The notes under the pieces are model-generated. The model had not been told where the DNA came from, did no database searches, and saw only the letters and a program-made list of their open reading frames with translations. A program made the position numbers and the translations under genes. DNA of 64,000 nt from Pseudomaricurvus alkylphenolicus (GTDB lineage Bacteria > Pseudomonadota > Gammaproteobacteria > Pseudomonadales > Cellvibrionaceae). Shown here in pieces: positions 23,625 to 55,109 of this stretch. Position 1 is the first letter of the stretch. Each line of letters begins with the position of its first letter. The stretch is taken from positions 1-64,000 of the forward strand of contig NZ_JAAQPI010000014.1 in the NCBI RefSeq assembly GCF_011683955.1, in the 5' to 3' direction.

Positions 23625-24197
23625 ATGTCAGCGATACCAAAATTCTCTCATGTGGTTTTTCAAACGCCTCAGGGCGAAGCAATGAGAAACTGGTACAGCA
23701 CGGTGCTCGATGGCCGGGTGGTATTTTCCGATGACGTACTCAGCTTTGTCACCTATGACGAGGAGCATCATCGCATTGCGCTGATACACCCCCCCGTCGC
23801 CATGGACAGAAAAACAGAGACCACCGCCGCCGCCCACCACACGGCATTTACCTTTGCCAATATTGATGAACTCATCGAACGTTACGAGCTGCTGCGAGAC
23901 AAGGACATTCTGCCCGCCGTTTGTATCTGCCATGGTATTACGACTTCCATGTACTACAAGGATCCGGACGGCAATTTTGTCGAGATGCAGATCGATACCT
24001 TCGAAAATCCAGACGACGCCACTGCCTATATGCAAGGGCCTTACTACGAAGAAGATTCGGTGGGCCCTGCGTTTGATCCCGAGGAGCTGGTCAAGCGCCG
24101 TCGCGAGGGTGCCTCGGAGAAGGAACTCGGCGACAGAGAAACCTGGAGACACTCGGGCCTTGGCAATCCTCTGGAAATCCTTATGGGCCCCCGATAA
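23625..24197 (+). CDS. VOC-superfamily protein, single-module extradiol-dioxygenase-like
   Basis: This 190-residue protein has one vicinal-oxygen-chelate module. The three expected metal ligands are visible: His in KFSHVVF, His in AAHHTAF and Glu in GNFVEMQID. DPDGNFVEMQ is a standard VOC closing motif. The C-terminal 60 residues (charged, KRRREGASEKEL) extend beyond the module. GGAG lies nine bases upstream of the ATG. It heads the forward run that continues with a SnoaL-like protein, the molybdenum enzyme and a second VOC protein, so dioxygenase, isomerase or lyase action on an aromatic intermediate is likely. Sequence does not separate these options. Confidence 0.8.
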   Translation: MSAIPKFSHVVFQTPQGEAMRNWYSTVLDGRVVFSDDVLSFVTYDEEHHRIALIHPPVAMDRKTETTAAAHHTAFTFANIDELIERYELLRDKDILPAVCICHGITTSMYYKDPDGNFVEMQIDTFENPDDATAYMQGPYYEEDSVGPAFDPEELVKRRREGASEKELGDRETWRHSGLGNPLEILMGPR

Positions 24198-24230
24198 CCC
24201 GAACCACCAGCACAGAAGGGAGAATTGAAG

Positions 24231-24677
24231 TTGCAACACTCAAGCATTCATGCGCCGGCACCTGAGCCTGTGAAGTTCGCGTGTCAGGCGTTGTCAATCG
24301 CCTTCGTCAATGCCGTCGATCAGCGTGACTACAAGAGAGCGCTCAGTGTATTCACTGAAGATGCGGTATTCGAGCGCTGGGATTCGGTCTTCCAGGGCAA
24401 GACGGAGATCGGAGCCATGCTCAACGCCCGGGATGTCAATGCCCAGACGCGCCACCTGTGTACCAACTTTGAGATCACGCAGTCACCCCAGGCAACAACG
24501 TCGGCCAGTGGTCTGAGCCTGTTCCTGTTTTACAAGCAATCCGGAAGCGTCAGCGAGCAGCCCTTGTCCACCGGGGGCGCGGCAATGGTCGGGGAGTTTC
24601 ACGATCACTATCAACTGACGGACGGCGGCTGGCGCATTGTCCGGCGTAAGGTCGTGCCCGTTTTCACGGCTGATTAA
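24231..24677 (+). CDS. SnoaL-like / NTF2-fold small protein
   Basis: This protein of about 148 residues has the alpha+beta cone-fold pattern. An amphipathic helix (ALSIAFVNAVDQRDYKRALSVF) is followed by TEDAVFERWDSVFQGKTEI and a final YQLTDGGWRIVRRKV strand. This is characteristic of SnoaL_4 proteins, which include small isomerases, cyclases and dehydratases and non-catalytic partners. The start is a TTG eight bases after AAGGGAG; another TTG six bases earlier is possible. It lies between the VOC protein and the molybdenum subunit, in the same direction. The substrate is unknown. Confidence 0.75.
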   Translation: MQHSSIHAPAPEPVKFACQALSIAFVNAVDQRDYKRALSVFTEDAVFERWDSVFQGKTEIGAMLNARDVNAQTRHLCTNFEITQSPQATTSASGLSLFLFYKQSGSVSEQPLSTGGAAMVGEFHDHYQLTDGGWRIVRRKVVPVFTAD

Positions 24678-24757: not shown

Positions 24758-27751
24758 ATGATCCAAATGAAAAGAACACTGCTGAAGGGCATCTTATACG
24801 GCACGACACTGGCCATCCGACAGGGGTTGAAGTCCAATCCGCCCGCTATCAAGCAAGCGGGTAATACGGATTGTATCGCCCAGATCATGCTTAAAGACAC
24901 CAGCATTGGCCGTTACTATGTGTTCAAAGACGGGCGCATGGTCGAAACCAAATCCGGCCTCTACGCTGGTCAGCCTCAAGTCAGTCTCGTGTTCCAGGAT
25001 GTTGATACCGCGCTTGGATTCCTGTCATTGAATGCCGACTATCATTCGATAGTTCACGACGCAAAGAACTTCAAGGCGGCTGTACTTGGTGACAGTAAAC
25101 TGAGTGTGTGGTTTATGCAGTTGATGAACCTGATTGTCGCCGGTAACCCGCAAATGGGCACCCCTATGCCCGATGGCAGTACGCGTTTTACCACCAATAC
25201 CAATGGTGGCCCGATGTTCGTCTACGTCAAGGATGACAAGATTCTGAGGATGACGCCGATTGACTTCGACGACGAAGACGCGCAGAGCTGGACAATCGAG
25301 GCCCGTGGTAAGAAATTCACACCTCTGAGACAGGGGGTTATCAATCCACATGCCCAGGGACTGAAGTCAACGGTCTACTCCGACAAGCGCATCCTTTACC
25401 CCATGAAGCGCGTTGATTTTGATCCCAACGGTGAGCGCAATCCTCAAAATCGTGGCAAGTCGGGCTACGAGCGTATCAGCTGGGAAGAGGCCACCGACAT
25501 CGTCGCCAACGAAATAAAACGACAGAAGAAAGTGCATGGCCCGGGCGCCATCGCCATGGCGTTTGGATCGCATCACCAGTGGGGAAACGTGGGCTACTAT
25601 CTGTCGGCGTTGCTACGGTTTGGCAATATGATTGGTTTTACCCGTGTAGTGCCCAACCCGGACAGCTGGGAAGGCTGGTACTGGGGGGCGACCCATCATT
25701 TCGGCAACAGCATGCGAGTAGGCATTCCCGGTCACTATGGTTTGGTGGAGGATTGCCTTAAAGAAGCGGAAATGATTGTGTTCTGGTCCAGTGACCCGGA
25801 ATCCACCAACGGCTATGCCAGCGGACTCGAGGGAACACAGCGACGCTTCTGGGCCAAAGAGTTGGGCATCGATTTTGTACACATTGATCCCAACCTCAAT
25901 GCAACCGCTCAACTCTACGGAGGGCGCTGGATTCCCGTCAAGCCTGGTACCGACCCTGCGCTGGCGATTGCGATTATGAATGTTTGGGTCAACGAGGGCC
26001 TCTACGACAAAGACTACGTCGACGGTCGTACGACCGGATTTGAGCAATGGAAGGCCTACTTGCTGGGCGAAGATGATGGCGTACCCAAAACACCGGAATG
26101 GCAAGAGCCCGAAACCGGCGTCAAAGCGCATGTGGTACGAGCGCTGGCACGGGCCTGGGGCAACAAAAAGACCTATCTGGCGGCCGGCGGGCTGGGTACC
26201 GGTTTTGGCGGAGCCTGCCGTAATGCCACGGGCAGTCAATGGGCCCGCAACATGATCTTGATGATGGCGATGCAGGGCTGGGGCAAGCCCGGTGTCAACT
26301 TCGGTAATCTGCAGGCCGGAACACCATTGGATCACTATTTCTACTTCCCCGGATACGCCGAAGGCGGCATCTCCGGAGAGCTGAATTTTACCGCGTGTGC
26401 CGTGAATAACTACCAGCGCATGCCCCACGTCCTGAGCATGAACCCGGTTAAGCAAATGATCCCGCGCCAGCGCCTTGCCGACGCCATTGTCGACGGCAAG
26501 GCGACCGGCTATCTCTGGGACGGTTCGTCGGCGGAGGCGCAGTTTGCGCCATTCCAATACCCGATGCCGGGCTACTCGCCGGTGCACATGATCTACCGCT
26601 ATGGTTCCTCCAGTTTTGGCACGGTCGCCAACTCGGATCGATGGGTGGACATGTATCGTCACGATTCCCTTGAGTGTGTTGTCAACCAGTCCATCTGGAT
26701 GGAAGGCGAAGCCCACTTTGCCGATATCATTCTGCCGGCCTGTACCTCGTTCGAACGCCATGATATCAGTGACTGGGGCAACTCCGGCGGTTACATTCAT
26801 CACAATACCGATCAGCTTAACCATCGCACGGTGGTATTTCAGCACAAGTGCATCGAACCACTGGGGGAGTCCAAGTCCGACTACCAGATTTTTACGGAAA
26901 TCCTCAACAAACTCGGTCTCGGGGCTATGTTTACCGAGGGATGTTCCGAGCTCGATTGGTGCAAGCGCGTATTCGAATCCTCGGATCTGCCAAAATACAC
27001 CAGCTGGAAGAAGTTTCTCAAAAAAGGCTACCACGTGATTGCACCGCCGCCGGAAAACCTGCGCACACCGGCCTACTTCCGCTGGTTTGCGGAAGATCGT
27101 CATAAAGATGTTCCCGAGCCTTTGCCGCTGCCGTCGCAATGGGCCGACGAGGCCGGCAAGGGGCTGCAGACCCCGTCCGGAAAAATTGAGTTTGTCGCCA
27201 CCACGATACAAAGGGGAGATCCCGACAATCCGGAGCGACCGGCCCTGAACCGCTATGTACCCTCTTGGGAGGGGATGCGCACGCAGGAACTGGTGGACAA
27301 ATATCCGCTGCAGCTGATCACCTCACATTCACGCTATACCTTTCACACCTATGGTGACGCCAAGGACAGTACCATCAATGACATCGCTGACCACAGGGTA
27401 TGCATAGACGGCTACTACTACTGGATTTTGCGTATCAACCCTGCTGATGCCAAGGCTCGTGGCTTGCGGCACCACGACCTGGTGCGGGTTCACAATGACC
27501 GGGGCAGCGTTATCTGTGCCATTGATGTATCGCCGCTGATGGCGCCAGGCACACTCAAAAGCTGGGAATCCTGCGCGGAAGTGGATCTCTTTGAAGATCC
27601 GCGATTTGGCAGAGTGGATCGCGGAGGATCGCTGAATCTTCTGACGCCGCAACGCCCGCAGGTGAAAAATACCGAGGGTATGGGTAGCAACTCTTGTCTG
27701 GTTGAGGTCGAAAAGTGGACCTACGCCAACGAAGAATTGATAAGAGCATAG
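24758..27751 (+). CDS. Transhydroxylase/resorcinol-hydroxylase-type molybdopterin subunit with N-terminal SCP2-like domain
   Basis: This 997-residue molybdenum enzyme subunit is about 120 residues longer than Pelobacter transhydroxylase alpha (around 875). Residues about 30-125 resemble an SCP2 sterol-carrier domain (YYVFKDGRMVE, PQVSLVFQDVDTALGFL). The rest follows the DMSO-reductase fold but has no N-terminal CxxC iron-sulfur motif, as in pyrogallol-phloroglucinol transhydroxylase. His272, Asp302, Ser303 and Trp304 have the same spacing as the His144/Asp174/Ser175(Mo ligand)/Trp176 that I recall for that enzyme. There is no Tat signal, so it is cytoplasmic. AGAGG precedes the ATG. The iron-sulfur subunit follows at once. 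Relatives move hydroxyl groups between polyphenols (pyrogallol, 1,2,3,5-tetrahydroxybenzene) or hydroxylate resorcinol. The substrate here is unproven. Confidence 0.85.
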   Translation: MIQMKRTLLKGILYGTTLAIRQGLKSNPPAIKQAGNTDCIAQIMLKDTSIGRYYVFKDGRMVETKSGLYAGQPQVSLVFQDVDTALGFLSLNADYHSIVHDAKNFKAAVLGDSKLSVWFMQLMNLIVAGNPQMGTPMPDGSTRFTTNTNGGPMFVYVKDDKILRMTPIDFDDEDAQSWTIEARGKKFTPLRQGVINPHAQGLKSTVYSDKRILYPMKRVDFDPNGERNPQNRGKSGYERISWEEATDIVANEIKRQKKVHGPGAIAMAFGSHHQWGNVGYYLSALLRFGNMIGFTRVVPNPDSWEGWYWGATHHFGNSMRVGIPGHYGLVEDCLKEAEMIVFWSSDPESTNGYASGLEGTQRRFWAKELGIDFVHIDPNLNATAQLYGGRWIPVKPGTDPALAIAIMNVWVNEGLYDKDYVDGRTTGFEQWKAYLLGEDDGVPKTPEWQEPETGVKAHVVRALARAWGNKKTYLAAGGLGTGFGGACRNATGSQWARNMILMMAMQGWGKPGVNFGNLQAGTPLDHYFYFPGYAEGGISGELNFTACAVNNYQRMPHVLSMNPVKQMIPRQRLADAIVDGKATGYLWDGSSAEAQFAPFQYPMPGYSPVHMIYRYGSSSFGTVANSDRWVDMYRHDSLECVVNQSIWMEGEAHFADIILPACTSFERHDISDWGNSGGYIHHNTDQLNHRTVVFQHKCIEPLGESKSDYQIFTEILNKLGLGAMFTEGCSELDWCKRVFESSDLPKYTSWKKFLKKGYHVIAPPPENLRTPAYFRWFAEDRHKDVPEPLPLPSQWADEAGKGLQTPSGKIEFVATTIQRGDPDNPERPALNRYVPSWEGMRTQELVDKYPLQLITSHSRYTFHTYGDAKDSTINDIADHRVCIDGYYYWILRINPADAKARGLRHHDLVRVHNDRGSVICAIDVSPLMAPGTLKSWESCAEVDLFEDPRFGRVDRGGSLNLLTPQRPQVKNTEGMGSNSCLVEVEKWTYANEELIRA

Positions 27752-27760
27752 GTGGCCAAC

Positions 27761-28606
27761 ATGCAAAAGTGGAATCTGATCATCGATGTGGCGAAGTGCG
27801 AGAATTGCCACAACTGTACCTTGTCAAGCAAGGACGAACACGAAGGCAATGACTTTCCCGGCTACGCCGCCGCGCAGCCGCGCCACGGCGCTGAGTGGAT
27901 AAAAATCAAGCGCAGGGTTCGAGGTGAGGGCACCATGGTTGAGGCCAACTACCAACCCACCATGTGTAATCACTGCGACGACGCACCCTGCCTGGCCGCA
28001 GGTGTTGACGGCGCGGTGAGAAAGCGCGACGACGGCATTGTGATCATAGATCCGGACAAGGCCAAAGGCCGTAAGGATCTGGTGGAGACTTGCCCCTACA
28101 ACGCCATTCACTGGAATGAAGAATTGCAACTGCCTCAAGTCTGGATCTTTGATGCTCACCTGCTGGATCAGGGTTGGAAGGCGCCTCGTTGCCAACAGTC
28201 CTGCCCGACCAAGGCGATAGAAGCCGTGAAGATCACCGATGGGCAAATGAATGCCCGGGTGGCAAGGGAAAAACTGCGAGTCTTGCGGCCGGAGTTCGAG
28301 GCAAAACCAAGAGTCTACTACAAAAATCTGCACCTGATGGACACGGAATTTCTGGGGGGCAGTGTGCAGTGCCGGATCAATGATCAGATCGAATGTATTG
28401 AGGGCGCTGAAGTCAAATTACTGCGTGATAATTGCGAACTGGCAAAGGTGATGACTGATGTATTCGGCGATTTCAAATTTGATGGACTGGAACCCGGCAG
28501 TAAAGATTACACTCTGAAAGTCAGTCATCCGAGCTATGGTTCGGCGTCGGTAACAGCAGATCTTCCCAACAGCCGTTACATTGACAACATCCTGCTCGAG
28601 CCCTGA
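27761..28606 (+). CDS. Transhydroxylase-type iron-sulfur (beta) subunit with transthyretin-like C-domain
   Basis: This 281-residue electron-transfer subunit starts MQKWNLIIDVAKC, five bases after AGGTGG; a GTG nine bases earlier is an alternative. Residues 1-190 form a two-fold ferredoxin unit with CENCHNC, CNHCDDAPC, ETCPYN and CQQSC. The tail from about residue 205 (GGSVQCRIND to YIDNILLEP) is a seven-strand carboxypeptidase-regulatory/prealbumin-like domain, as in Pelobacter AthS. KPRVYYKNL marks the junction. Relative to AthS as I remember it, the fourth Cys of the first motif is Ser and the later CTMC pair is missing (VWIFD), so only two of three [4Fe-4S] clusters seem possible. It forms a pair with the molybdenum subunit and is followed eleven bases later by the extradiol enzyme. 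Confidence 0.85.
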   Translation: MQKWNLIIDVAKCENCHNCTLSSKDEHEGNDFPGYAAAQPRHGAEWIKIKRRVRGEGTMVEANYQPTMCNHCDDAPCLAAGVDGAVRKRDDGIVIIDPDKAKGRKDLVETCPYNAIHWNEELQLPQVWIFDAHLLDQGWKAPRCQQSCPTKAIEAVKITDGQMNARVAREKLRVLRPEFEAKPRVYYKNLHLMDTEFLGGSVQCRINDQIECIEGAEVKLLRDNCELAKVMTDVFGDFKFDGLEPGSKDYTLKVSHPSYGSASVTADLPNSRYIDNILLEP

Positions 28607-28616
28607 GGAAAACAAC

Positions 28617-29552
28617 ATGTCAGTACAGTTTCTCAAACACGTGGCATTGACAATACCACATGAAGACAGTGATCGCGCGATCGACTTTTACGGCGCCTTC
28701 GGATTGCAGGTGCGACGCGGATCTGAACGGATTTCGTTTACCTGCAGCGGGCGTCGTTACGAATCCCTGCTGTTGCTTCCCGGTGACGGTGGCAAGAAAC
28801 TCCATCATATTGCCATGGGAACCAATTCAGAAGGTCTGGCAGACATTCGGCGAAATATGGAGAACTTTGGCCTGTGCAACGAAACCGCGCCGCCGGGTTT
28901 CAGTTCGCAGGTTGACGATGTCTGGTGCCGGAGCCCACAAGGGTTCCTGTTTCACATCAGCGTTTGTGAGCGGGAGCGAGAAGTAACACCGGAGCAACCA
29001 TTCCTGATCAATTCTCCCGGTCACTACAATCGCATCAATGGTGGAGCGCTGCCACCAAAATCCGAACTGCCGACAGTACGCCCACGAAAACTGGGGCACA
29101 GTTTGTTGTTTACACCAGACCTGAACAAGAGCATCGAATTTCTTATACAGGTGCTGGGCATGCGCCTGTCAGATCGCTCTCAGGACGTTGTGGCATTTCT
29201 GCACTGTCAGGGAGGAAGCGATCACCACGTCATCGCCTTGGCGCAGTCAACCGCCATTGGTTTTCATCACGCCAGTTTTATGGTGGCAACGCCGGATGAA
29301 GTGGGTCGCGGTGGGCAACAGATGGCGCAACAGGGTTATGAAAAAGGCTGGGGCTTTGGAAGACACGCCATCGGTTCGAATTTCTTTCACTATGTCCAGG
29401 ACCCTTGGGGCAGTTTTATCGAGTATTATGCCGACATCGACTACATCGACAACAGTGACACCTGGGAAGCCAAAAACTGGCCGCTGGAAGATTCACTGTT
29501 TACCTGGGGACCAAACCCGCCAGAAGATTTTGTTCACAACTACGAGGCGTAG
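28617..29552 (+). CDS. Two-module type I extradiol dioxygenase-like protein (VOC)
   Basis: This 311-residue protein consists of two VOC modules, the architecture of 2,3-dihydroxybiphenyl and catechol 2,3-dioxygenases. The N-terminal module begins LKHVALTIPHED. The C-terminal module, from about residue 160, carries the likely iron ligands: His in LGHSLLF, His in GFHHASF and Glu in FIEYYAD. HYVQDPWGSFIEY matches the family's C-terminal signature. GAGG precedes the ATG. It sits directly after the molybdenum enzyme and before a fumarylacetoacetase-family hydrolase. The three steps of hydroxyl rearrangement, meta ring opening and C-C hydrolysis would make a coherent pathway. The order is inferred from gene context. 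Confidence 0.85.
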   Translation: MSVQFLKHVALTIPHEDSDRAIDFYGAFGLQVRRGSERISFTCSGRRYESLLLLPGDGGKKLHHIAMGTNSEGLADIRRNMENFGLCNETAPPGFSSQVDDVWCRSPQGFLFHISVCEREREVTPEQPFLINSPGHYNRINGGALPPKSELPTVRPRKLGHSLLFTPDLNKSIEFLIQVLGMRLSDRSQDVVAFLHCQGGSDHHVIALAQSTAIGFHHASFMVATPDEVGRGGQQMAQQGYEKGWGFGRHAIGSNFFHYVQDPWGSFIEYYADIDYIDNSDTWEAKNWPLEDSLFTWGPNPPEDFVHNYEA

Positions 29553-29608: not shown

Positions 29609-30481
29609 ATGAAATTGGTTCGATTTATCGCTGACAACGGCCCGCGTACGGGAGTGGTTGTAGCAGCCGGAGAAAATGCGAACGGCGGCATTGTCGATTT
29701 GCTTCAGGCAAAGGCCGAATACACCGATATTATGGAGATCATCAACGCCGGACAACCAGCGCTGGAATCCTTGAACAGCGCGGCTGCTGATTGCCCACCG
29801 CACTATCGTCTTGAAGACGTCACGTTGTTGGCGCCCATCGTCAAGCCCGGCAAGTTTCTTGCGATTGGCATGAACTATAAGAAGCATCAACAAGAGGCGG
29901 CCAGGCTGGGTGTGCAGGAGCAGACCAAACAAGTGTGGTTCAACAAGCAGACCAGCTGCATTACTGGCCCTTACGCCGACATCGATCCGGGGGTGACCGA
30001 AAAGCTGGACTATGAGGTGGAGCTCGGCGTGGTGATTGGCAAGCCAGCGAAGGGCGTCAGCAAGGAACATGCCCGCGAGCATATCTTCGGGTATTTTGTT
30101 GTCAATGATGTGTCTGCGCGCGATTGGCAGTTCCATACGCCGACCTTTACCATGGGCAAATCGTTTGATACCCATGGCCCCATGGGCCCCTGGATTGTCA
30201 CGGCTGACGAAATCGATGATCCGCAAAACCTGGGTTTGCGCTGTATCGTCAACGGTGAGGTTCGCCAGTCCAACAACACCTCACAAATGGTGCATGACAT
30301 TGATTCGCAGATAGAGTACCTGTCAACGGCTTTCACATTGGAGTCAGGCGACCTGATTGCTACCGGCACGCCTGAAGGCGTCGGTGTGGCAATGGAGCCG
30401 GCTGTCTTCCTTCAGCCGGGTGATGTCGTGCGCTGCGAAATCGACGCGATAGGTGCTATTGAAAACAAAGTTAAGATCTAA
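29609..30481 (+). CDS. Fumarylacetoacetate hydrolase (FAH)-family protein
   Basis: This 290-residue enzyme has the FAH C-terminal domain, with LAIGMNYKKHQQEA marking its opening. The acidic metal-binding cluster DYEVELGVVIG, VNDVSARDWQ, KSFDTHGPMGPW and TGTPEGVG follow. The residue set matches acylpyruvate hydrolases, 2-hydroxyhepta-2,4-diene-1,7-dioate isomerases and C-C hydrolases. AGGAG precedes the ATG. As the last gene of the run, it most likely hydrolyses or isomerises the ring-fission product of the upstream extradiol enzyme. A strong terminator follows 48 bases after the stop. Confidence 0.9.
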   Translation: MKLVRFIADNGPRTGVVVAAGENANGGIVDLLQAKAEYTDIMEIINAGQPALESLNSAAADCPPHYRLEDVTLLAPIVKPGKFLAIGMNYKKHQQEAARLGVQEQTKQVWFNKQTSCITGPYADIDPGVTEKLDYEVELGVVIGKPAKGVSKEHAREHIFGYFVVNDVSARDWQFHTPTFTMGKSFDTHGPMGPWIVTADEIDDPQNLGLRCIVNGEVRQSNNTSQMVHDIDSQIEYLSTAFTLESGDLIATGTPEGVGVAMEPAVFLQPGDVVRCEIDAIGAIENKVKI

Positions 30482-30582: not shown

Positions 30583-32799
30583 TCAAACCAATAGCAGGCC
30601 ATGCTTCGAAAGCGGGAAGTCCCGATAACGTTTGCCGGTTGCTCGATATAACGCATTAAGTACGGCGGGTGCCGCGACGGCAATGGTCGGCTCTCCTACG
30701 CCTCCCCAGGTATCAGCACGGCTCTCCATGATAATGGTTTCGACCTCGGGCGTCTGGGCCATGCGCATGGACGGGTAGGTGTCAAAGTTGTGCTGTTCAA
30801 TACGGCCGCCTTTGACGGTACATGCCTGCATGAACAAGGCTGACAGACCAAAGACGAATGAACCGGATACCTGACGTCGAATCTGCGCGGGATTGACAGC
30901 ATAGCCACAGTCCGTGGCCGCAACGATGCGATGTATCTTGACCCGATTACCCTCGGACACTGAGAGTTCGCAGGCGGCCGCGACGTAACTGCCATAAGCA
31001 TGTGCCTGGGCCAGGCCACGGTATCTGTCTTCTGGCGCCGATTGATCCCAGCCAATGCGATCAGCGACCGCATCCAGTACGGCTCGATGGTTGGGGTGCT
31101 CATGCATGTGCTCGCGACGAAAACGGTAAGGGTCCTTGCCGGCGGCCTCAGCCAGTTCATCCATAAAACACTCCAGAAACAGGGCATTTTGATTGATGTT
31201 GACACCTCGCCAGAAGCCGGGCGGCACATGGGAGTTGCGCATTACATAGTCGATCAGCAGCGAGGGAATGCCGTAGCCAATGCTGGCATCACCACCGCGG
31301 TTCAAGCCCTGAAAGACGAAGGGGTCTTTATGGTTGAAGCGGGCATAGAGCTGGGGTCTGGCACCGGCCAGAATCGACTGGCCGCACAGCCGCATTCGCA
31401 GCCCCTGCAATTGACCCTGGTTGCTTATAGCCGCTTGCAACTTGCAATGCATTACCGGGTGGTAGCGGCTGTGAGTCATGTCTTCTTCGCGTGACCAGAG
31501 CAGCTTGACGGGCCGACCGGGAACTTGTCTGGCAATCTGAACGGCCTGGCTGAGAAAGTCATCGTCATAATGCCCCCTGCGGCCGAACCCGCCACCGATA
31601 ATCAGTTTATGGACTTCGCATTGAGCGGGCGGCAGTTCCGAGGCTCTGACGACCTCCTGAAATGCTTTCTCGCCATCTTGTGTGGGTACCCATGCCTCAC
31701 AACGGTGACCATCGTAAAAGACGGTGGCGTTCATGGGTTCCATCGGCGCTTGCGTCTGGTGGGGATAGGCGTAAACCGCCTCCAGCATCTGCTCAGTATT
31801 GTCGAACATACGCTCGGGATCACCGTTGCGGTTGCCGACAACGGCGTCTTCCGACGACAACCCCTCCCTCAGCATAGCGTCGACGGCATCGCTGGTTTGC
31901 GTGGCATTGGGGCCTTCGTCCCATTGGATATCAAGGTTGTCGAGTGCCTTGTTGGCCCGCCACCAAGTGTCGGCTACCACGGCAATCGCATCATCACCAA
32001 TCGTCACCACCTTTTCGATGCCACGTTGCTGTAATACATTTGCTGAACGGTAGCTCTTTAGCCGACCCCCAAAAACCGGACATCTCCGCACGGAGGCATT
32101 TAACATATCCGGCAACCGTACATCAGCTCCATAGACTTGTTTGCCATTGACTTTGTCGCCTGTGTCGAGTCGTTTCAGAGGCTTGCCAATAATCTTCCAG
32201 TCTGCTGGTGACTTGAGCACCAAGCTGTCAAAATTGAACTCCTTCGGTTGGATGTCTTGCGCAAGTCTTGCCGCTTCTTCCGCAACTTCACCGTAGCGAA
32301 ACCGGCGTCCAGAGGGCGCGTGAATAATGACGCCGTTATTCGCGCGACAGTCTCCCCTGTGAACCCTTAATCGTTTTGCAGCGGCCAGTACAAGCAACTC
32401 ACGAGCGATGGCTCCGCCTTTACGTACGTATTCGTGGGAGTCACGAATCCCGTGGCTTCCAAAGGTACCAAAAGCGCCCCAGGGGCGACCGCGTTTCGCA
32501 CTTTCTCCTGGGGTGGGGAATTCGGTTACGATCTTCGACCAATCGCACTCAAGCTCTTCCGCCACCAGTTGCGCCAGTCCTGTGAGTGTGCCCTGGCCCA
32601 TCTCCGAGCGAGCAATACGTATTAACACCGTGTCATCGGATCGAACCACCACCCAGGCATTGACTTCATCGCTCCGAATATTGCCGGTTTCCGTGGCGTT
32701 GGCTGCAGTGGGAATGGCAACGCCGATTGCCAACCCGCTGCAGGCGAGAGCCGATCGGGCAAGAAACACGCGTCGGCTGATTTTGACTTCCGCTTTCAT
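30583..32799 (-). CDS. Molybdenum hydroxylase large subunit, isoquinoline 1-oxidoreductase beta (IorB)-like
   Basis: This 738-residue protein of the xanthine-dehydrogenase superfamily has the molybdenum-binding subunit in the short IorB arrangement. The Tat signal ISRRVFLARSALACSGLAIG directs export of the folded protein. GGGFGRRG, the cofactor-binding loop, and GGVGEPT, which carries the catalytic glutamate, are present. AAGGAG lies six bases before the ATG at 32799; the reading frame is open further upstream without homology. The gene is ten bases downstream of the [2Fe-2S] subunit. Relatives hydroxylate N-heterocycles or oxidise aldehydes in the periplasm. No c-type cytochrome partner gene is adjacent. 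The substrate is unknown. Confidence 0.87.
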   Translation of the reverse strand: MKAEVKISRRVFLARSALACSGLAIGVAIPTAANATETGNIRSDEVNAWVVVRSDDTVLIRIARSEMGQGTLTGLAQLVAEELECDWSKIVTEFPTPGESAKRGRPWGAFGTFGSHGIRDSHEYVRKGGAIARELLVLAAAKRLRVHRGDCRANNGVIIHAPSGRRFRYGEVAEEAARLAQDIQPKEFNFDSLVLKSPADWKIIGKPLKRLDTGDKVNGKQVYGADVRLPDMLNASVRRCPVFGGRLKSYRSANVLQQRGIEKVVTIGDDAIAVVADTWWRANKALDNLDIQWDEGPNATQTSDAVDAMLREGLSSEDAVVGNRNGDPERMFDNTEQMLEAVYAYPHQTQAPMEPMNATVFYDGHRCEAWVPTQDGEKAFQEVVRASELPPAQCEVHKLIIGGGFGRRGHYDDDFLSQAVQIARQVPGRPVKLLWSREEDMTHSRYHPVMHCKLQAAISNQGQLQGLRMRLCGQSILAGARPQLYARFNHKDPFVFQGLNRGGDASIGYGIPSLLIDYVMRNSHVPPGFWRGVNINQNALFLECFMDELAEAAGKDPYRFRREHMHEHPNHRAVLDAVADRIGWDQSAPEDRYRGLAQAHAYGSYVAAACELSVSEGNRVKIHRIVAATDCGYAVNPAQIRRQVSGSFVFGLSALFMQACTVKGGRIEQHNFDTYPSMRMAQTPEVETIIMESRADTWGGVGEPTIAVAAPAVLNALYRATGKRYRDFPLSKHGLLLV

Positions 32800-32809
32800 G
32801 GTTGGCTCC

Positions 32810-33265
32810 TTAGTCTTGATCGGCGGCGGCAAGATGTATGGCTTGGCGAACTTCTTGAAAAGTACCACAGCGACAAATATTGGTAATCTGATCGTCAATG
32901 TCTGCGTCGGACGGAGAAGGGGTTGTCTCCAGCAACGCCACAGTGGCCATAATCATTCCTGACTGACAATAGCCGCATTGAGGGGCGTCGGCTTCGATCC
33001 ATGCCCGTTGTATTTTGTGTAACTTGCCGCTCCTTTCCAGGCCTTCGATGGTGGTTATTTTTTTACCGGAGGCTGCGGCAATCGGGAAAACGCAGGATCG
33101 CAATGCAATTCCGTCCACCTGTACCGTACAGGCTCCGCATTGTGCTTTACCACAACCATACTTTGTGCCTGTCAGGCTAAGTTGTTCCCGTAATACCCAC
33201 AGCAGTGGCGTGTCGGGTTCAACATCAAGGGAGTACTCTTTGTCGTTGACGGTCAGACGGATCAT
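32810..33265 (-). CDS. [2Fe-2S] subunit of molybdenum hydroxylase, IorA-like
   Basis: This 151-residue electron-transfer subunit has a plant-ferredoxin-type cluster motif ([16 protein letters not shown]) and a second helical-domain cluster (QCGYCQSGM with NICRCGT). This is the standard small subunit of xanthine-oxidase-family enzymes. AAGGAG precedes the ATG. An in-frame extension upstream is not homologous and is rejected. It is the first gene of the two-gene reverse unit, with 274 bases separating it from the divergent TonB receptor. There is no Tat signal of its own, so it is probably carried out together with the large subunit. Confidence 0.9.
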
Positions 33266-33539
33266 GGTTTCTCCTTGTGAAGGTGGGGAAAAAACAGCCG
33301 GAAATTCAGGGCGAGGATACTGGAAATTTGCTGCCGGAGGAAAGCAATTTCTGCGATAGAATTTTGGCATCAAAACGCCATGATCAATATCTTGTTTGCC
33401 TGCAGGCATTGGAGATAAAGTGTGGCACACACGGAAAAGAAAACCGTAAAAAAACGCTGCTTTAACTGCCTACAATTATAAGTACTGGTGTTGTTATATC
33501 GCGGCTATTCAATAACAAAACTTTCGGACGGAGAGAATG

Positions 33540-51082: not shown

Positions 51083-53755
51083 ATGACACATGCAGCTATT
51101 GAAAATCCCCACGACACCGATGACATCGCTCTGGAAAACGGTGAGTGGATAGACGCTATCGACTCCGTGCGGCGTGAACAGGGCGAGCATCGCAGCCGGG
51201 AGATTCTCAGGCTGTTACAAAACCACCTGCTGACCCAGGGCGTCAGTCTATCCGAGGCCACACTCAATACCCCATACCGCAACACCATTCCGCCGCACCA
51301 GCAGCCGGCCTATCCCGGTGACAGGGAGCTGGAGCAGAAAATTGAAAATATTATCCGCTGGAATGCCATGGCCATGGTGCTCGGTGCCAACGACAACGGT
51401 TCGGGCGTCGGCGGTCATATCGCCACCTATCAGTCCGTCGCCACTGCTCTGGAGGTGGGTTTTCATCACTGGTTTAGGGCGCGCAGCGACAACTACGGCG
51501 GAGATATCCTGATGGTTCAAGCGCACGCCGCGCCGGGCATCTATGCGCGTGCCTATCTGGAGGGCCGACTGACCGCAACACAGCTGCAACACTTCCGCCG
51601 TGAACTGCAGCAAGGCGGTGGTCTGCCCTCGTATCCGCATCCTCGCCGGTTGCCTGACTTCTGGCAGCTGCCGAGCGCTTCCATGGGGCTGTCAACCCCC
51701 TCGGCTATCTATCAGGCGCGTTTTATGAAATACCTCCAAAACCGCGGCCTGAAACCCGACAACGGCGGCAAGGTCTGGTGCTTTATCGGCGACGGCGAAT
51801 CGGACGAGCCTGAGGTATTGGGAACCATTAACATGGCCGTGCGTGAAGATCTGGACAATCTGGTCATGGTGGTTAACTGTAACTTGCAGCGACTCGATGG
51901 TCCCGTGCGGGGCAATGGCAAGATCATTCAGGAACTCGAGCGCAGTTACCGTGGCTCCGGCTGGGATGTGATCAAAGTCATTTGGGGCGGGGAGTGGGAT
52001 GAGTTGTTTGCCCGCGATCACGACGGTGTATTACAAGCTCGCATGGACCGCGCGGTGGATGGAGACTATCAATTCTATACCGTTTCCGACGGTACCACGG
52101 TGCGTGAACACTGGATTGACGGTGATCGACGACTGGCACAGCTGATGCAGACACTCAGCGACGATGAAATCCGGGTGATTCGGCGAGGGGGCCACGACCG
52201 TAAAAAGCTCTACGCGGCCTTTGAGCGGGCGGCGAAGAGTACGGGTCGCCCGACGGCGGTACTGATCAAAACAGTCAAGGGCGATGGCTTGGGCGCGGCG
52301 GCTGAGGGGCAGAATACTGCCCATCAGAAAAAGCAGCTCAGTGAAGAGGAGCGCATTGCCATTGGCAGGCGCTTCGGTATTCCCCTGAGCGATGAGCAAA
52401 TGGCACGAGCCGAACTCTACAAACCTGAATCGGACAGCCCGGAGGCCCAGTATCTGCACCAGCAGCGACAACGCCTGGACGGCTATCTGCCCTCGCGTGT
52501 GGTCAGTGAACAGCGTCTGCAGGCACCCGCCTTGTCTCAGTTCAAGGCCGCCATAGAAGGCAGCAAGCGCGAACAATCCACCACCATGGCCTTTGTACGT
52601 ATGCTGGCAACGCTGCTGAAGGACAAGGCCATCGGGCGTCACATGGTTCCCATTGTGCCCGATGAGGCGCGAACTTTTGGTATGGAGTCTCTCTTCAAGC
52701 AGTTTGGTATCTATTCCAGCGAAGGACAAAAATACAAACCCGTCGATGCCTCCACGTTGTTGCCGTACAGAGAAGCCAAAGACGGGCAACTGCTGCAAGA
52801 AGGCATTTGTGAAGCCGGTGCCATGGCCTCGTTCCTGGCGGCGGGCACGGCTTATGCCAACTTTGGTGTGCCGATGATCCCGTTTTACATTTTCTATTCG
52901 ATTTTTGGCTTTCAGCGCGTCGGCGATATGATTTGGTCCTGCGCCGACGCCATGGCAAAGGGGTTCTTGATGGGAGCCACAGCCGGTCGTACCACGCTCA
53001 ATGGCGAGGGTTTGCAGCATCAGGATGGGCACTCTCATGTGCTCGCCTCGACGATACCAAACCTGCGCAGCTACGACCCGGCTTTCGCCTATGAGCTGGC
53101 GGTGATCGTGCGGGACGGCATCGAGCGTATGTACTACAAGGATGAAAATATCTTCTACTACCTGACCCTGTATAACCAGAACTATGAGATGCCCGCGATG
53201 CCAAGTGGTGTGGAAGAGGGCATCATCAACGGCATGTATCGCTTTTCTGAGGACAGTGATGAGGGTTACAAGGTTCATCTGTTGGGCAGTGGCAGCCTGA
53301 TGCAGGAGGTGCTGGCGGCAGTGCGGATTCTCAAACAATACCACTGTAGCGTGGATGTCTGGAGCGTGACCAGTTATACCGAATTGCAGCGTCAGGCCCA
53401 ACAGGTCGAACGTCAGAATCTGTTGGCGCCTGATCGGCGTGAACGCAATTACATCGAGCGGGTGATGTCTGAGGAGGAGGGCATAGTGGTTGCCTGCAGT
53501 GACTACATGAAGTCTCTTGCCAACGGCATTTCCCGCTGGTTCACGCAGTCATTTACCGCGTTGGGGACTGATGGGTTTGGCCTCAGCGAATCTCGACCCG
53601 ACCTGCGCCGTCACTTTGAGGTGGACGCCAATTATATCGCCTGGGCAGCTTTGACCAGTCTCTTTAACAAGGGCGAGTTGGCGCAGGAGGCGCTCGAGCG
53701 TGCGCGACAGGATCTCAATATTCCCAGACAAAAGCAGGATCCGAGTTCGTTATGA
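51083..53755 (+). CDS. aceE: Pyruvate dehydrogenase E1 component (homodimeric type)
   Basis: This 890-residue thiamine-diphosphate enzyme decarboxylates pyruvate and reductively acetylates the lipoyl group of E2. The length is close to E. coli AceE (887). Expected motifs are present: HIATYQSVATALEVG near the N-terminus, the cofactor loop IGDGESDEPE to VNCNLQ, and FGMESLFKQFGIY and GEGLQHQDGHSHV in the C-terminal half. AAGG lies eight bases before the ATG. The E2 gene follows 67 bases later. No E3 (lpd) gene is adjacent. It could be the main pyruvate dehydrogenase, or a second 2-oxoacid dehydrogenase copy (MdeB-like) serving catabolism. Confidence 0.92.
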   Translation: MTHAAIENPHDTDDIALENGEWIDAIDSVRREQGEHRSREILRLLQNHLLTQGVSLSEATLNTPYRNTIPPHQQPAYPGDRELEQKIENIIRWNAMAMVLGANDNGSGVGGHIATYQSVATALEVGFHHWFRARSDNYGGDILMVQAHAAPGIYARAYLEGRLTATQLQHFRRELQQGGGLPSYPHPRRLPDFWQLPSASMGLSTPSAIYQARFMKYLQNRGLKPDNGGKVWCFIGDGESDEPEVLGTINMAVREDLDNLVMVVNCNLQRLDGPVRGNGKIIQELERSYRGSGWDVIKVIWGGEWDELFARDHDGVLQARMDRAVDGDYQFYTVSDGTTVREHWIDGDRRLAQLMQTLSDDEIRVIRRGGHDRKKLYAAFERAAKSTGRPTAVLIKTVKGDGLGAAAEGQNTAHQKKQLSEEERIAIGRRFGIPLSDEQMARAELYKPESDSPEAQYLHQQRQRLDGYLPSRVVSEQRLQAPALSQFKAAIEGSKREQSTTMAFVRMLATLLKDKAIGRHMVPIVPDEARTFGMESLFKQFGIYSSEGQKYKPVDASTLLPYREAKDGQLLQEGICEAGAMASFLAAGTAYANFGVPMIPFYIFYSIFGFQRVGDMIWSCADAMAKGFLMGATAGRTTLNGEGLQHQDGHSHVLASTIPNLRSYDPAFAYELAVIVRDGIERMYYKDENIFYYLTLYNQNYEMPAMPSGVEEGIINGMYRFSEDSDEGYKVHLLGSGSLMQEVLAAVRILKQYHCSVDVWSVTSYTELQRQAQQVERQNLLAPDRRERNYIERVMSEEEGIVVACSDYMKSLANGISRWFTQSFTALGTDGFGLSESRPDLRRHFEVDANYIAWAALTSLFNKGELAQEALERARQDLNIPRQKQDPSSL

Positions 53756-53822
53756 ATGTGTTCAACGCATCCGCGCAGCGTTTCTTATTGTTCCCAGGTT
53801 TTTGATGAGGTGGAAACACACA

Positions 53823-55109
53823 ATGACAACTCAAACGGTATGTATGCCCGAATTGGATGGTGGTGGAGAGGTCATAGAATTTTGCGCCGAGGTCGGTCAA
53901 CTGGTGACGGAAGGCGACTCGCTAATGGTGCTGGAGTCGGACAAGGCCTCAATTGAAGTCCCCTCACCGGCTAACGGCACCGTTTCACAGTGGCTGGTTG
54001 AAATTGGTACGCAAATTGTATCCGGTGCGCCCCTGTTGGAGTTGCAGCCACTTGGCAGCGGTGCTGACGCATCGACGTGTGATCAGGACACACTACTACC
54101 TTTGGAGTCCAAACCGGCTCCCGAGCCAGAGACTGCCCCTTCCCCTGGCGACACGACTGACTCTGCAACCGCATTCCCGGTTGCCACCAGCGCGGTAGTA
54201 AGCGCCCATATCAACGCCGGCCCGGCGGTCCGAAAGCTGGCTCGGGAATTGGGTATACAGCTGGCGGACGTCGAGGCGCCCGGTTCGGGAGAGCGGCTGC
54301 GCAAGGAACACCTGAAGGCACATGTCAAGCAACGTTTGTCGCAACGGCCGGCCGCTCCGAATGAGGCTTGCGGGAGTGTGCCGCCAATGCCCCTGGAAGA
54401 TTATGTGCGTTACGGCGATATTGAACACAAGGATCTGACCAATATCGCCAAGGCTACGGTGGTGCACATGACCCGCTGTTGGCTCAATATTCCACACGTT
54501 ACTTTGTTTGATGAGGTGAACATTGACGCCGTTGAGAACTTCCGCAAGTCGGTCGATCCCCAGTCTTTGGGCTTACCCCGCCATCCCACATTATTGCCAT
54601 TTATTATCGCAGTGGTAGCAAGGGCGCTGAGACATTTTCCGCAGTTTAACGTTGCCCTGGACGAAAAAAACGAACAGGTGATACAGAAATCCTATGTTAA
54701 TATCGGTTTCGCGGTAGACTCGCCTGCGGGTCTGCTGGTGCCAGTCATTCGCGAGGCGGATAAAAAGAGCATTCGGGAACTGGCACTGGAGATCACGGCG
54801 CTGGGCGAAAAAGCCAGGGAGCGCAAACTCAGCCCCGCCGATATGCAAGGAGGCTGCTTTACCGTTTCCAGCATGGGACCGATGGGTGGGACCGGTTTTA
54901 CTCCCATCATCAACGGCCCCGAAGTGGCCATACTCGGGATTGCCAAAGCCAGCGTCAAACCGGTTTGGGACGGTGAGCGGTTTGTTCCCGTCAAACAGCT
55001 GCCACTGTGCCTGTCGTTTGATCATCGTGCCATCAATGGTGGGGATGCGGGACGATTTATGGCATTTGTTAACGATGCCCTGTGTGATATACGACGGCTG
55101 TTGTTGTAA
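53823..55109 (+). CDS. aceF: Dihydrolipoyl acetyltransferase E2, single lipoyl domain
   Basis: This 428-residue acyltransferase has one lipoyl domain (residues 1-78, lipoyl-lysine Lys41 in ESDKASIEV), an Ala/Pro-rich linker and a peripheral-subunit-binding domain (about 133-170: AVRKLARELGIQLADV). A catalytic domain from about residue 200 ends in LSFDHRAINGGDAGRF, with active-site His401. E. coli AceF has three lipoyl domains and about 630 residues, so this is a short form. The ATG follows GAGGTGG at slightly long spacing; an ATG 15 bases earlier is possible, and longer frames overlap aceE. It forms an operon with the upstream E1. Confidence 0.9.
   Translation: MTTQTVCMPELDGGGEVIEFCAEVGQLVTEGDSLMVLESDKASIEVPSPANGTVSQWLVEIGTQIVSGAPLLELQPLGSGADASTCDQDTLLPLESKPAPEPETAPSPGDTTDSATAFPVATSAVVSAHINAGPAVRKLARELGIQLADVEAPGSGERLRKEHLKAHVKQRLSQRPAAPNEACGSVPPMPLEDYVRYGDIEHKDLTNIAKATVVHMTRCWLNIPHVTLFDEVNIDAVENFRKSVDPQSLGLPRHPTLLPFIIAVVARALRHFPQFNVALDEKNEQVIQKSYVNIGFAVDSPAGLLVPVIREADKKSIRELALEITALGEKARERKLSPADMQGGCFTVSSMGPMGGTGFTPIINGPEVAILGIAKASVKPVWDGERFVPVKQLPLCLSFDHRAINGGDAGRFMAFVNDALCDIRRLLL

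Follow-up and report, generated by a model that had tools for sequence, protein, structure and literature searches.

Why would a molybdenum (Mo) enzyme of the transhydroxylase type carry a sterol-carrier (SCP2) domain at its front? The question is raised by a pair of genes in a 64,000-nucleotide stretch of DNA from Pseudomaricurvus alkylphenolicus (contig NZ_JAAQPI010000014.1, positions 1 to 64,000), which as a whole is called the window below. The larger gene encodes a subunit in which an SCP2-like domain precedes a catalytic part related to pyrogallol-phloroglucinol transhydroxylase (TH), and with its iron-sulfur (FeS) partner it makes up a two-subunit enzyme. Transhydroxylase-type enzymes are known mainly from anaerobes that ferment tannin phenols. 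We found that three marks, namely the SCP2 domain, the residue at TH position 153 and the cysteine set of the small subunit, sort the genes of this family into testable groups.

An SCP2 domain joined to a transhydroxylase-type subunit

The gene pair is laid out as follows.

24758-27751, + strand: open reading frame of the large subunit, 997 amino acids (aa)
24758..25159, + strand: predicted SCP2 domain, large-subunit residues 1-134 (N-terminal helix 2-26, then the alpha/beta SCP2 fold; AlphaFold model, Foldseek, VIA)
25181..27751, + strand: Mo-bis-MGD catalytic part of the transhydroxylase type, residues 142-997, stop codon included (4v4c_A; PF21423, PF00384, PF01568)
27752..28606, + strand: small FeS subunit of the transhydroxylase type, 284 aa (4v4c_B, 238.7 bits; PF13247, 69.1 bits)

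A sequence search of the PDB aligned residues 142-989 with the TH large subunit (4v4c_A) at 947.6 bits, the second-best relative being a dimethyl sulfoxide (DMSO) reductase at 224.7 bits. Pfam recognized PF21423, the first domain of the TH family, at 98.9 bits (cut-off 27), as well as PF00384 and PF01568. The full-length model (pLDDT 81.9, pTM 0.84, with several stretches around the active site below 50) matched 4v4c_A with a TM score of 0.92 by target length and 51% identity in the structural alignment. Judged by PF21423 and by homology across the whole large subunit, the enzyme would belong to the pyrogallol hydroxytransferase family (TH/PgtL, AhtL). Neither a signal peptide nor a twin-arginine motif was seen on the large subunit by eye, no predictor having been run, and the enzyme is probably cytosolic.

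The first-pass annotation had read the first 125 residues or so as an SCP2 domain, and structure prediction upheld that reading while the profile search did not. The AlphaFold model of residues 1-134 has a pLDDT of 89.9; solved SCP2 structures top its structural matches in both Foldseek and VIA, with UbiJ-SCP2 as the top Foldseek match, so that these residues are predicted to adopt the SCP2 alpha/beta fold. PF02036 (SCP2) had no match on the window N-terminus up to E 10 and matched 6 of 36 family N-termini at E<=1. A Pfam scan of the window N-terminus returned a Choline_bind_2 repeat alone (E 0.078), which we take as chance, and when an N-terminal profile was run against PDB sequences, two unrelated chains came back (E 0.091 and 0.82).

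The closest relatives of this domain that we found are five stand-alone SCP2-like proteins (118-168 aa) from genomes of the window's order.

L118, 1456-1854: stand-alone SCP2-like protein
L119, 1459-1854: stand-alone SCP2-like protein
L131, 1492-1908: stand-alone SCP2-like protein
L132, 1501-1857: stand-alone SCP2-like protein
L133, 1381-1887: stand-alone SCP2-like protein

They differ from the window protein in being unfused, and L132 and L133 align less closely. When all five were scanned, only L131 passed the PF02036 cut-off. A comparison in hhalign of the N-terminal profile with the alignment of these proteins gave a probability of 99.5; against nine collected SCP2 proteins, which made a poor nine-row alignment, it gave 4.5, and the stand-alone proteins themselves 34.3. 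The comparisons with the nine proteins are weak, and the SCP2 assignment leans on the fold and on L131. Chance similarity was considered and ruled out by the predicted fold and by its recurrence across relatives. The stand-alone genes adjoin unrelated genes, an HU-like one (by eye) in the case of L118 and L132.

Active site and position 153

Equivalents of TH residues were located through the alignment of the large subunit to 4v4c_A, and conservation was read in 36 members.

25571..25573, + strand: H272, equivalent to TH H144, invariant (36/36)
25661..25669, + strand: D302-S303-W304, equivalent to TH D174, S175 and W176, invariant (36/36)
26354..26356, + strand: Y533, equivalent to TH Y404, invariant (36/36)
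25598..25600, + strand: Y281, equivalent to TH R153; Arg/Lys in the close unfused genes read, Trp/Tyr in fused ones

We take the catalytic roles of TH H144, D174, S175 (the Mo ligand) and Y404 from crystal-structure work on TH. The bit score to 4v4c and the invariance of these residues confirm the earlier description of a transhydroxylase-type Mo subunit with its His/Asp/Ser/Trp set, and the TH-type catalytic set is intact in the window enzyme.

The exception is position 153. Arg153 of TH lies next to the catalytic region and may have a role in the pocket. Among the 36 members, 25 have Tyr and 11 have Trp there, and all fused genes read have one or the other. Nine close unfused genes (L146, L147, L148, L151, L182, L183, L191, L193, L194) have Lys or Arg, as TH has Arg; the unfused state of one of them, L151, is unproven since it is truncated at its front. 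Loci from two further phylum samples, fetched after this pattern had emerged, agreed with it. A basic-to-aromatic change at position 153 thus seems to track the SCP2 fusion. More distant unfused relatives (L149, L150, L152, L184-L187, L196, L197; about 32-37% identity) have other residues at TH Y152, at R153 and mostly at Y404, and keep all twelve small-subunit cysteines; they possibly form a separate branch.

Lost cluster ligands in the small subunit

The TH small subunit holds three [4Fe-4S] clusters. From the ferredoxin pattern of DmsB/NarH we assign its twelve cysteines to the sets 13/16/19/149, 23/126/129/145 and 68/71/76/109. The window small subunit has nine of the twelve, the equivalents of C23, C126 and C129 being gone.

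27827..27829, + strand: S26 of the small subunit, in place of TH cluster ligand C23 (alignment to TH)
28142..28153, + strand: W131-I-F-D134 of the small subunit, in place of the TH ligand pair C126-x-x-C129 (alignment to TH)

The window is not alone in this. Both C126 and C129 are absent from 53 of 66 aligned small subunits (those of the window, L002, L007 and 50 loci), where they are replaced by Trp and Asp, or by Trp and Glu in L024. C23 is also gone in 50 of these 53, and C145 in a few. Throughout the 66, losses are confined to the assigned set 23/126/129/145, except in L068, whose first three ligands read as non-Cys, probably through a wrong start or a misalignment. All twelve cysteines are kept in the remaining 12 small subunits and in TH. 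The small subunit was not read for 30 of the 95 rows: 18 of the 83 fused ones (window, L002, L007 and 80 loci) and all 12 of L143-L154, which were read in a later pass.

These losses go with position 153. The 12 twelve-Cys rows all have Trp153, and 52 of the 53 ligand-lost rows have Tyr153, L056 being the exception with Trp. In the later loci, all readable small subunits of unfused or Trp-type genes keep the twelve cysteines, and the 126/129 pair is lost in all readable ones of Tyr-type genes. The family thus appears to split three ways, and unexpectedly cleanly: unfused genes with Arg or Lys, fused genes with Trp and twelve cysteines, and fused genes with Tyr and lost ligands. We found no description of such a split in the literature searched by enzyme and domain names. 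Seven small subunits (L073, L075, L085, L162-L165) have lost C126 and C129 and kept C23; such intermediate sets may record the sequence of steps by which the cluster was lost. The loss itself may be an adaptation to oxygen, or it may mean that electrons no longer leave via the small subunit, as would happen with a neutral reaction or with an acceptor that is reached directly. The C-terminal stretch of the window small subunit weakly resembles a carboxypeptidase-regulatory domain (PF13620, 30.2 bits, below the cut-off of 32.3).

Distribution and phylogeny of the fusion

Relatives were taken from a scan of genome contigs as the best 80 of at least 566 loci. One of the two search patterns sits within the SCP2 domain, so the set is biased to fused forms and overstates their share. 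The fusion, to which the first-pass annotation had drawn attention, does exist beyond the window and is no one-off but widespread, most of the SCP2 domain being present in 78 of these 80 relatives in this biased set, with only its second half in L024 and L066. Fused relatives occur in records of Rhizobium, Ensifer, Mesorhizobium, Paraburkholderia, Caballeronia, Pseudomonas, Moorella and Desulfobacula, and in Dehalococcoidia and actinobacterial metagenome-assembled genomes (MAGs). The protein of Aestuariicella hydrocarbonica (G493/L015) is 90% identical to that of the window.

Samples of a class, of phyla and of a family, each named by the record used as its centre, give a fairer view of the frequency. 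For the window's class, matches at E<=1e-60 came from 3 of 369 genomes; G000 has two fused genes, G1088 has one, and the third genome has a 32% unfused relative. The phylum of a Deltaproteobacteria MAG (L070) gave matches at 1e-100 in 5 of 247 genomes: 3 of the genes are fused, 4 lack the domain at 48-56% identity (among them L151, truncated by the end of its contig), and another 4 have 37% identity. Moorella's phylum has matches in 8 of 199 genomes, 4 of the genes being fused and the unfused ones falling into 3 at 49-50% and 5 at 37-40%. In the phylum of a Dehalococcoidia MAG, 2 of 201 genomes match, and besides 1 fused gene there are unfused ones, 2 at 47-49% and 3 at 36-38%. For the family of a Rhodocyclales MAG, where 12 of 249 genomes match, 14 of 18 rows have the domain from its first third onward; the others are L161, which begins at residue 72, L165, which the contig end truncates, L171, which is the second fragment of a gene that is split, and L172, unfused at 38%. 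Viral contigs yielded no relative.

In a tree of the Mo part (49 rows), all 42 fused rows lie on one side of a branch with an SH-aLRT support of 99, TH and its unfused kin falling outside. The Tyr153, ligand-lost rows form a 31-row branch (SH-aLRT 100) nested within the fused clade, and L056 is included in it. The tree was built by a quick search in IQ-TREE, SH-aLRT being its only support measure, and has a long outgroup branch. With the distant unfused rows as outgroup, it points to a single gain of the fusion; given that long branch, a loss of SCP2 on the TH side could also account for it.

The window genome has a second SCP2-fused pair of large and small subunits (L179, also L002; 7979-14109 of G000:C11). 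This pair is 58% identical and is accompanied by a diverged VOC dioxygenase-like gene (60% to that of the window) and an FAA-hydrolase-like gene. On G1208:C1, two fused large-subunit genes (L173, 7403-11290, and L174, 1014-4022) lie about 10 kb apart, each followed by an ECH-like gene.

Gene neighbourhood

The gene pair of the window is flanked by the following genes.

23625..24197, + strand: single-domain VOC protein, upstream (PF00903)
24225..24677, + strand: SnoaL_4-like protein, upstream (PF13577)
28617..29552, + strand: two-domain VOC protein resembling extradiol dioxygenases (PF00903; PDB 3b59)
29609..30481, + strand: protein of the fumarylacetoacetate (FAA)-hydrolase family, candidate hydrolase of a ring-fission product (PF01557, 234.4 bits)

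The two-domain VOC protein also matches homoprotocatechuate and catechol 2,3-dioxygenases, mostly over its C-terminal half. A dioxygenase-like gene and an FAA-family hydrolase gene beside a ring hydroxylase suggest a context of extradiol ring cleavage. Among the neighbouring genes scanned, no gene for a membrane subunit lies beside the window pair.

Elsewhere, the fused clade adjoins dioxygenase-like and FAA-hydrolase-like genes in records of Paraburkholderia and Pseudomonas, and FAA-hydrolase-like genes in those of Rhizobium and Ensifer. A gene of either kind was present in the fetched flank of 37 of 53 cluster-lost rows vs 0 of 12 twelve-Cys rows, the window and L002 having been scored by the script as lacking such neighbours, yet both carrying both kinds. 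The labels come from BLAST similarity to the two window genes (28 and 40 of the 80 loci) and from clusters named by eye as VOC, FAA hydrolase or CoA ligase rather than by Pfam, in flanks of unequal length. CoA-ligase-like genes, so named, occur in 31 loci.

The window pair lies in a dense catabolic island (3955-50729) with five TonB receptors, two MFS transporters, two VanA-type Rieske oxygenases, four amidohydrolase-family genes, and genes for a CoA ligase, an ECH, an aldehyde dehydrogenase and an acyl-CoA dehydrogenase. On the minus strand at 30583-33430 we noted by eye what looks like a Mo large subunit of the xanthine-oxidase/isoquinoline-oxidoreductase type with a 2Fe-2S small-subunit gene, which would put a second Mo enzyme beside the first.

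A possible link to resorcinol hydroxylase

Besides TH, the nearest characterised enzyme is the resorcinol hydroxylase RhL. Of the 110 sequences searched, three (L175, L020, L024) have pyruvate dehydrogenase (PDH)-type E1a and E1b genes close to fused genes. At L175 (1175-12128 of G1198:C3), Pfam identified in a row E1a, E1b, E2, E3, the large and the small subunit, a hydroxyisobutyrate-dehydrogenase-type and an ECH-type gene, so that the four PDH-type genes stand directly upstream of the SCP2-fused pair. Such a PDH-type gene content is reportedly (Darley et al. 2007, cited in PMC10100899) that of the resorcinol hydroxylase (rhLS) and hydroxybenzoquinone dehydrogenase locus of Azoarcus anaerobius. 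L175 is thus a candidate resorcinol-hydroxylase cluster and, if the Azoarcus locus does have this gene content, the SCP2-bearing clade would include resorcinol hydroxylases; the PDH-type genes beside all three loci would fit a net oxidation of the resorcinol-hydroxylase kind. PMC10100899 describes RhL as a cytoplasmic, Ser-ligated enzyme converting resorcinol to hydroxyhydroquinone in anaerobic respiration, groups it with TH/PgtL as enzymes with a Ser ligand, and uses the term RhL/PgtL family.

No PDH-type gene was found directly beside the window pair among the neighbouring genes scanned. At 51083-55109, 23 kb away and in an aromatic-catabolism island, there are genes for an AceE-type pyruvate dehydrogenase E1 and an E2. 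The AceE-type gene as a part of a hydroxybenzoquinone dehydrogenase was considered and found unsupported: its score against the pyruvate dehydrogenase E1 of E. coli is 958.7 bits, and the genome has four such genes, an unusual copy number, the other three being 62, 52 and 50% identical to it.

Proposed function

Membrane docking or the binding of a hydrophobic ligand would be the natural reading of the predicted SCP2 fold. We tentatively favour, as something that may quite possibly be true, a membrane-docked Mo enzyme that hydroxylates or transhydroxylates the ring of a small polyhydroxylated phenol and feeds meta-cleavage, its SCP2 domain holding a quinone or lipid. The Mo site would add a hydroxyl to the phenol ring without O2 and yield a vicinal diol, which the neighbouring dioxygenase would cleave, the FAA hydrolase then breaking down the ring-fission product. 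The SCP2 domain would dock the enzyme at the membrane and hold a lipophilic ligand, most likely a quinone as electron acceptor. We propose a quinone because a net water-derived hydroxylation must shed two electrons, whereas a redox-neutral transhydroxylation need not. After the fusion, the window branch would have given up one small-subunit [4Fe-4S] cluster and been recruited into O2-dependent ring cleavage. In PMC9499169, the SCP2 domain of UbiJ is proposed to bind ubiquinone precursors and is modelled on the membrane.

A bolder version, which we regard as unlikely, would make SCP2 an integral module for loading quinone and docking on the membrane, in place of the membrane subunit that enzymes of the DMSO-reductase family usually have. 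Electrons of an O2-independent phenol hydroxylation would pass to a quinone beside the Mo subunit without a complete FeS wire, and the proteobacterial branch that dropped one cluster would be an oxygen-adapted line of an anaerobic family, supplying aerobic meta-cleavage.

Several observations weigh against the favoured proposal. A small subunit with one cluster gone should export electrons less readily, and the loss fits a redox-neutral enzyme at least equally well. Lineage and lifestyle confound the contrast in neighbouring genes: many of the 37 rows come from close relatives, Paraburkholderia and its kin, and since anaerobes are not expected to carry dioxygenase genes, the contrast may reflect only lineage. 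Because records of anaerobes (Moorella, Dehalococcoidia, Desulfobacula) hold fused genes as well, the fusion alone is no marker of aerobic use. As to docking, the best 18-residue helix hydrophobic moment per protein spreads widely, from 0.25 to 0.69 across the 36 proteins, singling out no strong membrane helix, and the window's best amphipathic stretch, residues 19-36, extends past the predicted helix. Finally, the SCP2 part has a mean pairwise identity of 38% vs 64% for the Mo part (36 proteins, 630 pairs).

The low identity, a sign of fast evolution, would be in keeping with the SCP2 fold being a ligand-free structural element serving dimerisation or subunit contact. Yet position-specific conservation persists (R52, K103 and G111 are invariant and eight further positions near-invariant in 36 rows) and the domain is kept through the clade in the tree, and we consider this explanation improbable. 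It is rather unlikely, in our view, that the enzyme truly works as a redox-neutral transhydroxylase, transferring a hydroxyl from one polyphenol to another, with SCP2 serving only to tether it close to the membrane or to a partner. The five TH residues that were checked are all present, and losing the ligands of one of three assigned clusters would cost nothing if electrons stay inside; however, position 153 is consistently unlike that of the unfused relatives read, and the PDH-type genes beside three fused loci suggest net oxidation there.

SCP2 folds bind lipids, and the domain might instead capture a hydrophobic substrate, such as an alkyl-polyphenol or a meroterpenoid, and pass it to the Mo site. 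The large catabolic island, with its TonB receptors, CoA ligase, acyl-CoA dehydrogenase and VanA-type oxygenases, and the 90% identical protein of A. hydrocarbonica speak for this, but the fusion is common to very diverse bacteria, which argues against one special lipophilic substrate, and the immediate neighbours resemble single-ring meta-cleavage enzymes. Nothing pointed to a wider pocket, though pocket width was not measured. We see little chance of this reading. The first-pass annotation had expected a substrate larger than pyrogallol; with the catalytic set intact and such neighbours, the data do not imply one, and the change of Arg153 to Tyr, the sole one seen near the catalytic residues in the sequence, is uninformative on size.

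The three marks could serve to correct annotations as 'pyrogallol hydroxytransferase', and electron delivery by a two-subunit hydroxylase that has no membrane anchor is directly testable by removing a single domain. Our searches found no literature combining SCP2 with transhydroxylase, nor any under hydroxybenzoquinone or hydroxyhydroquinone dehydrogenase terms, with poor coverage of subscription papers that makes these absences weak.

Comparison with known systems

The window enzyme resembles TH in being a two-subunit Mo enzyme with the same H/D/S/W/Y residues and a small subunit that aligns over most of its length. It differs in that TH has no SCP2 domain, has R153 where the window has Y, and has 12 cluster cysteines vs 9. 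Compared with RhLS of Azoarcus anaerobius, the window pair adjoins dioxygenase-like and FAA-hydrolase genes rather than PDH-type genes. SCP2 domains with the same fold as that predicted here occur in UbiJ, in the alkylsulfatases SdsA1 and Pisa1, and in human MFE-2. The alkylsulfatases are an earlier example of a catabolic enzyme joined to SCP2, but there the SCP2 match is close to the C-terminus (residues about 530-660, in chains of about 630 residues), whereas in the window it is N-terminal to the Mo enzyme.

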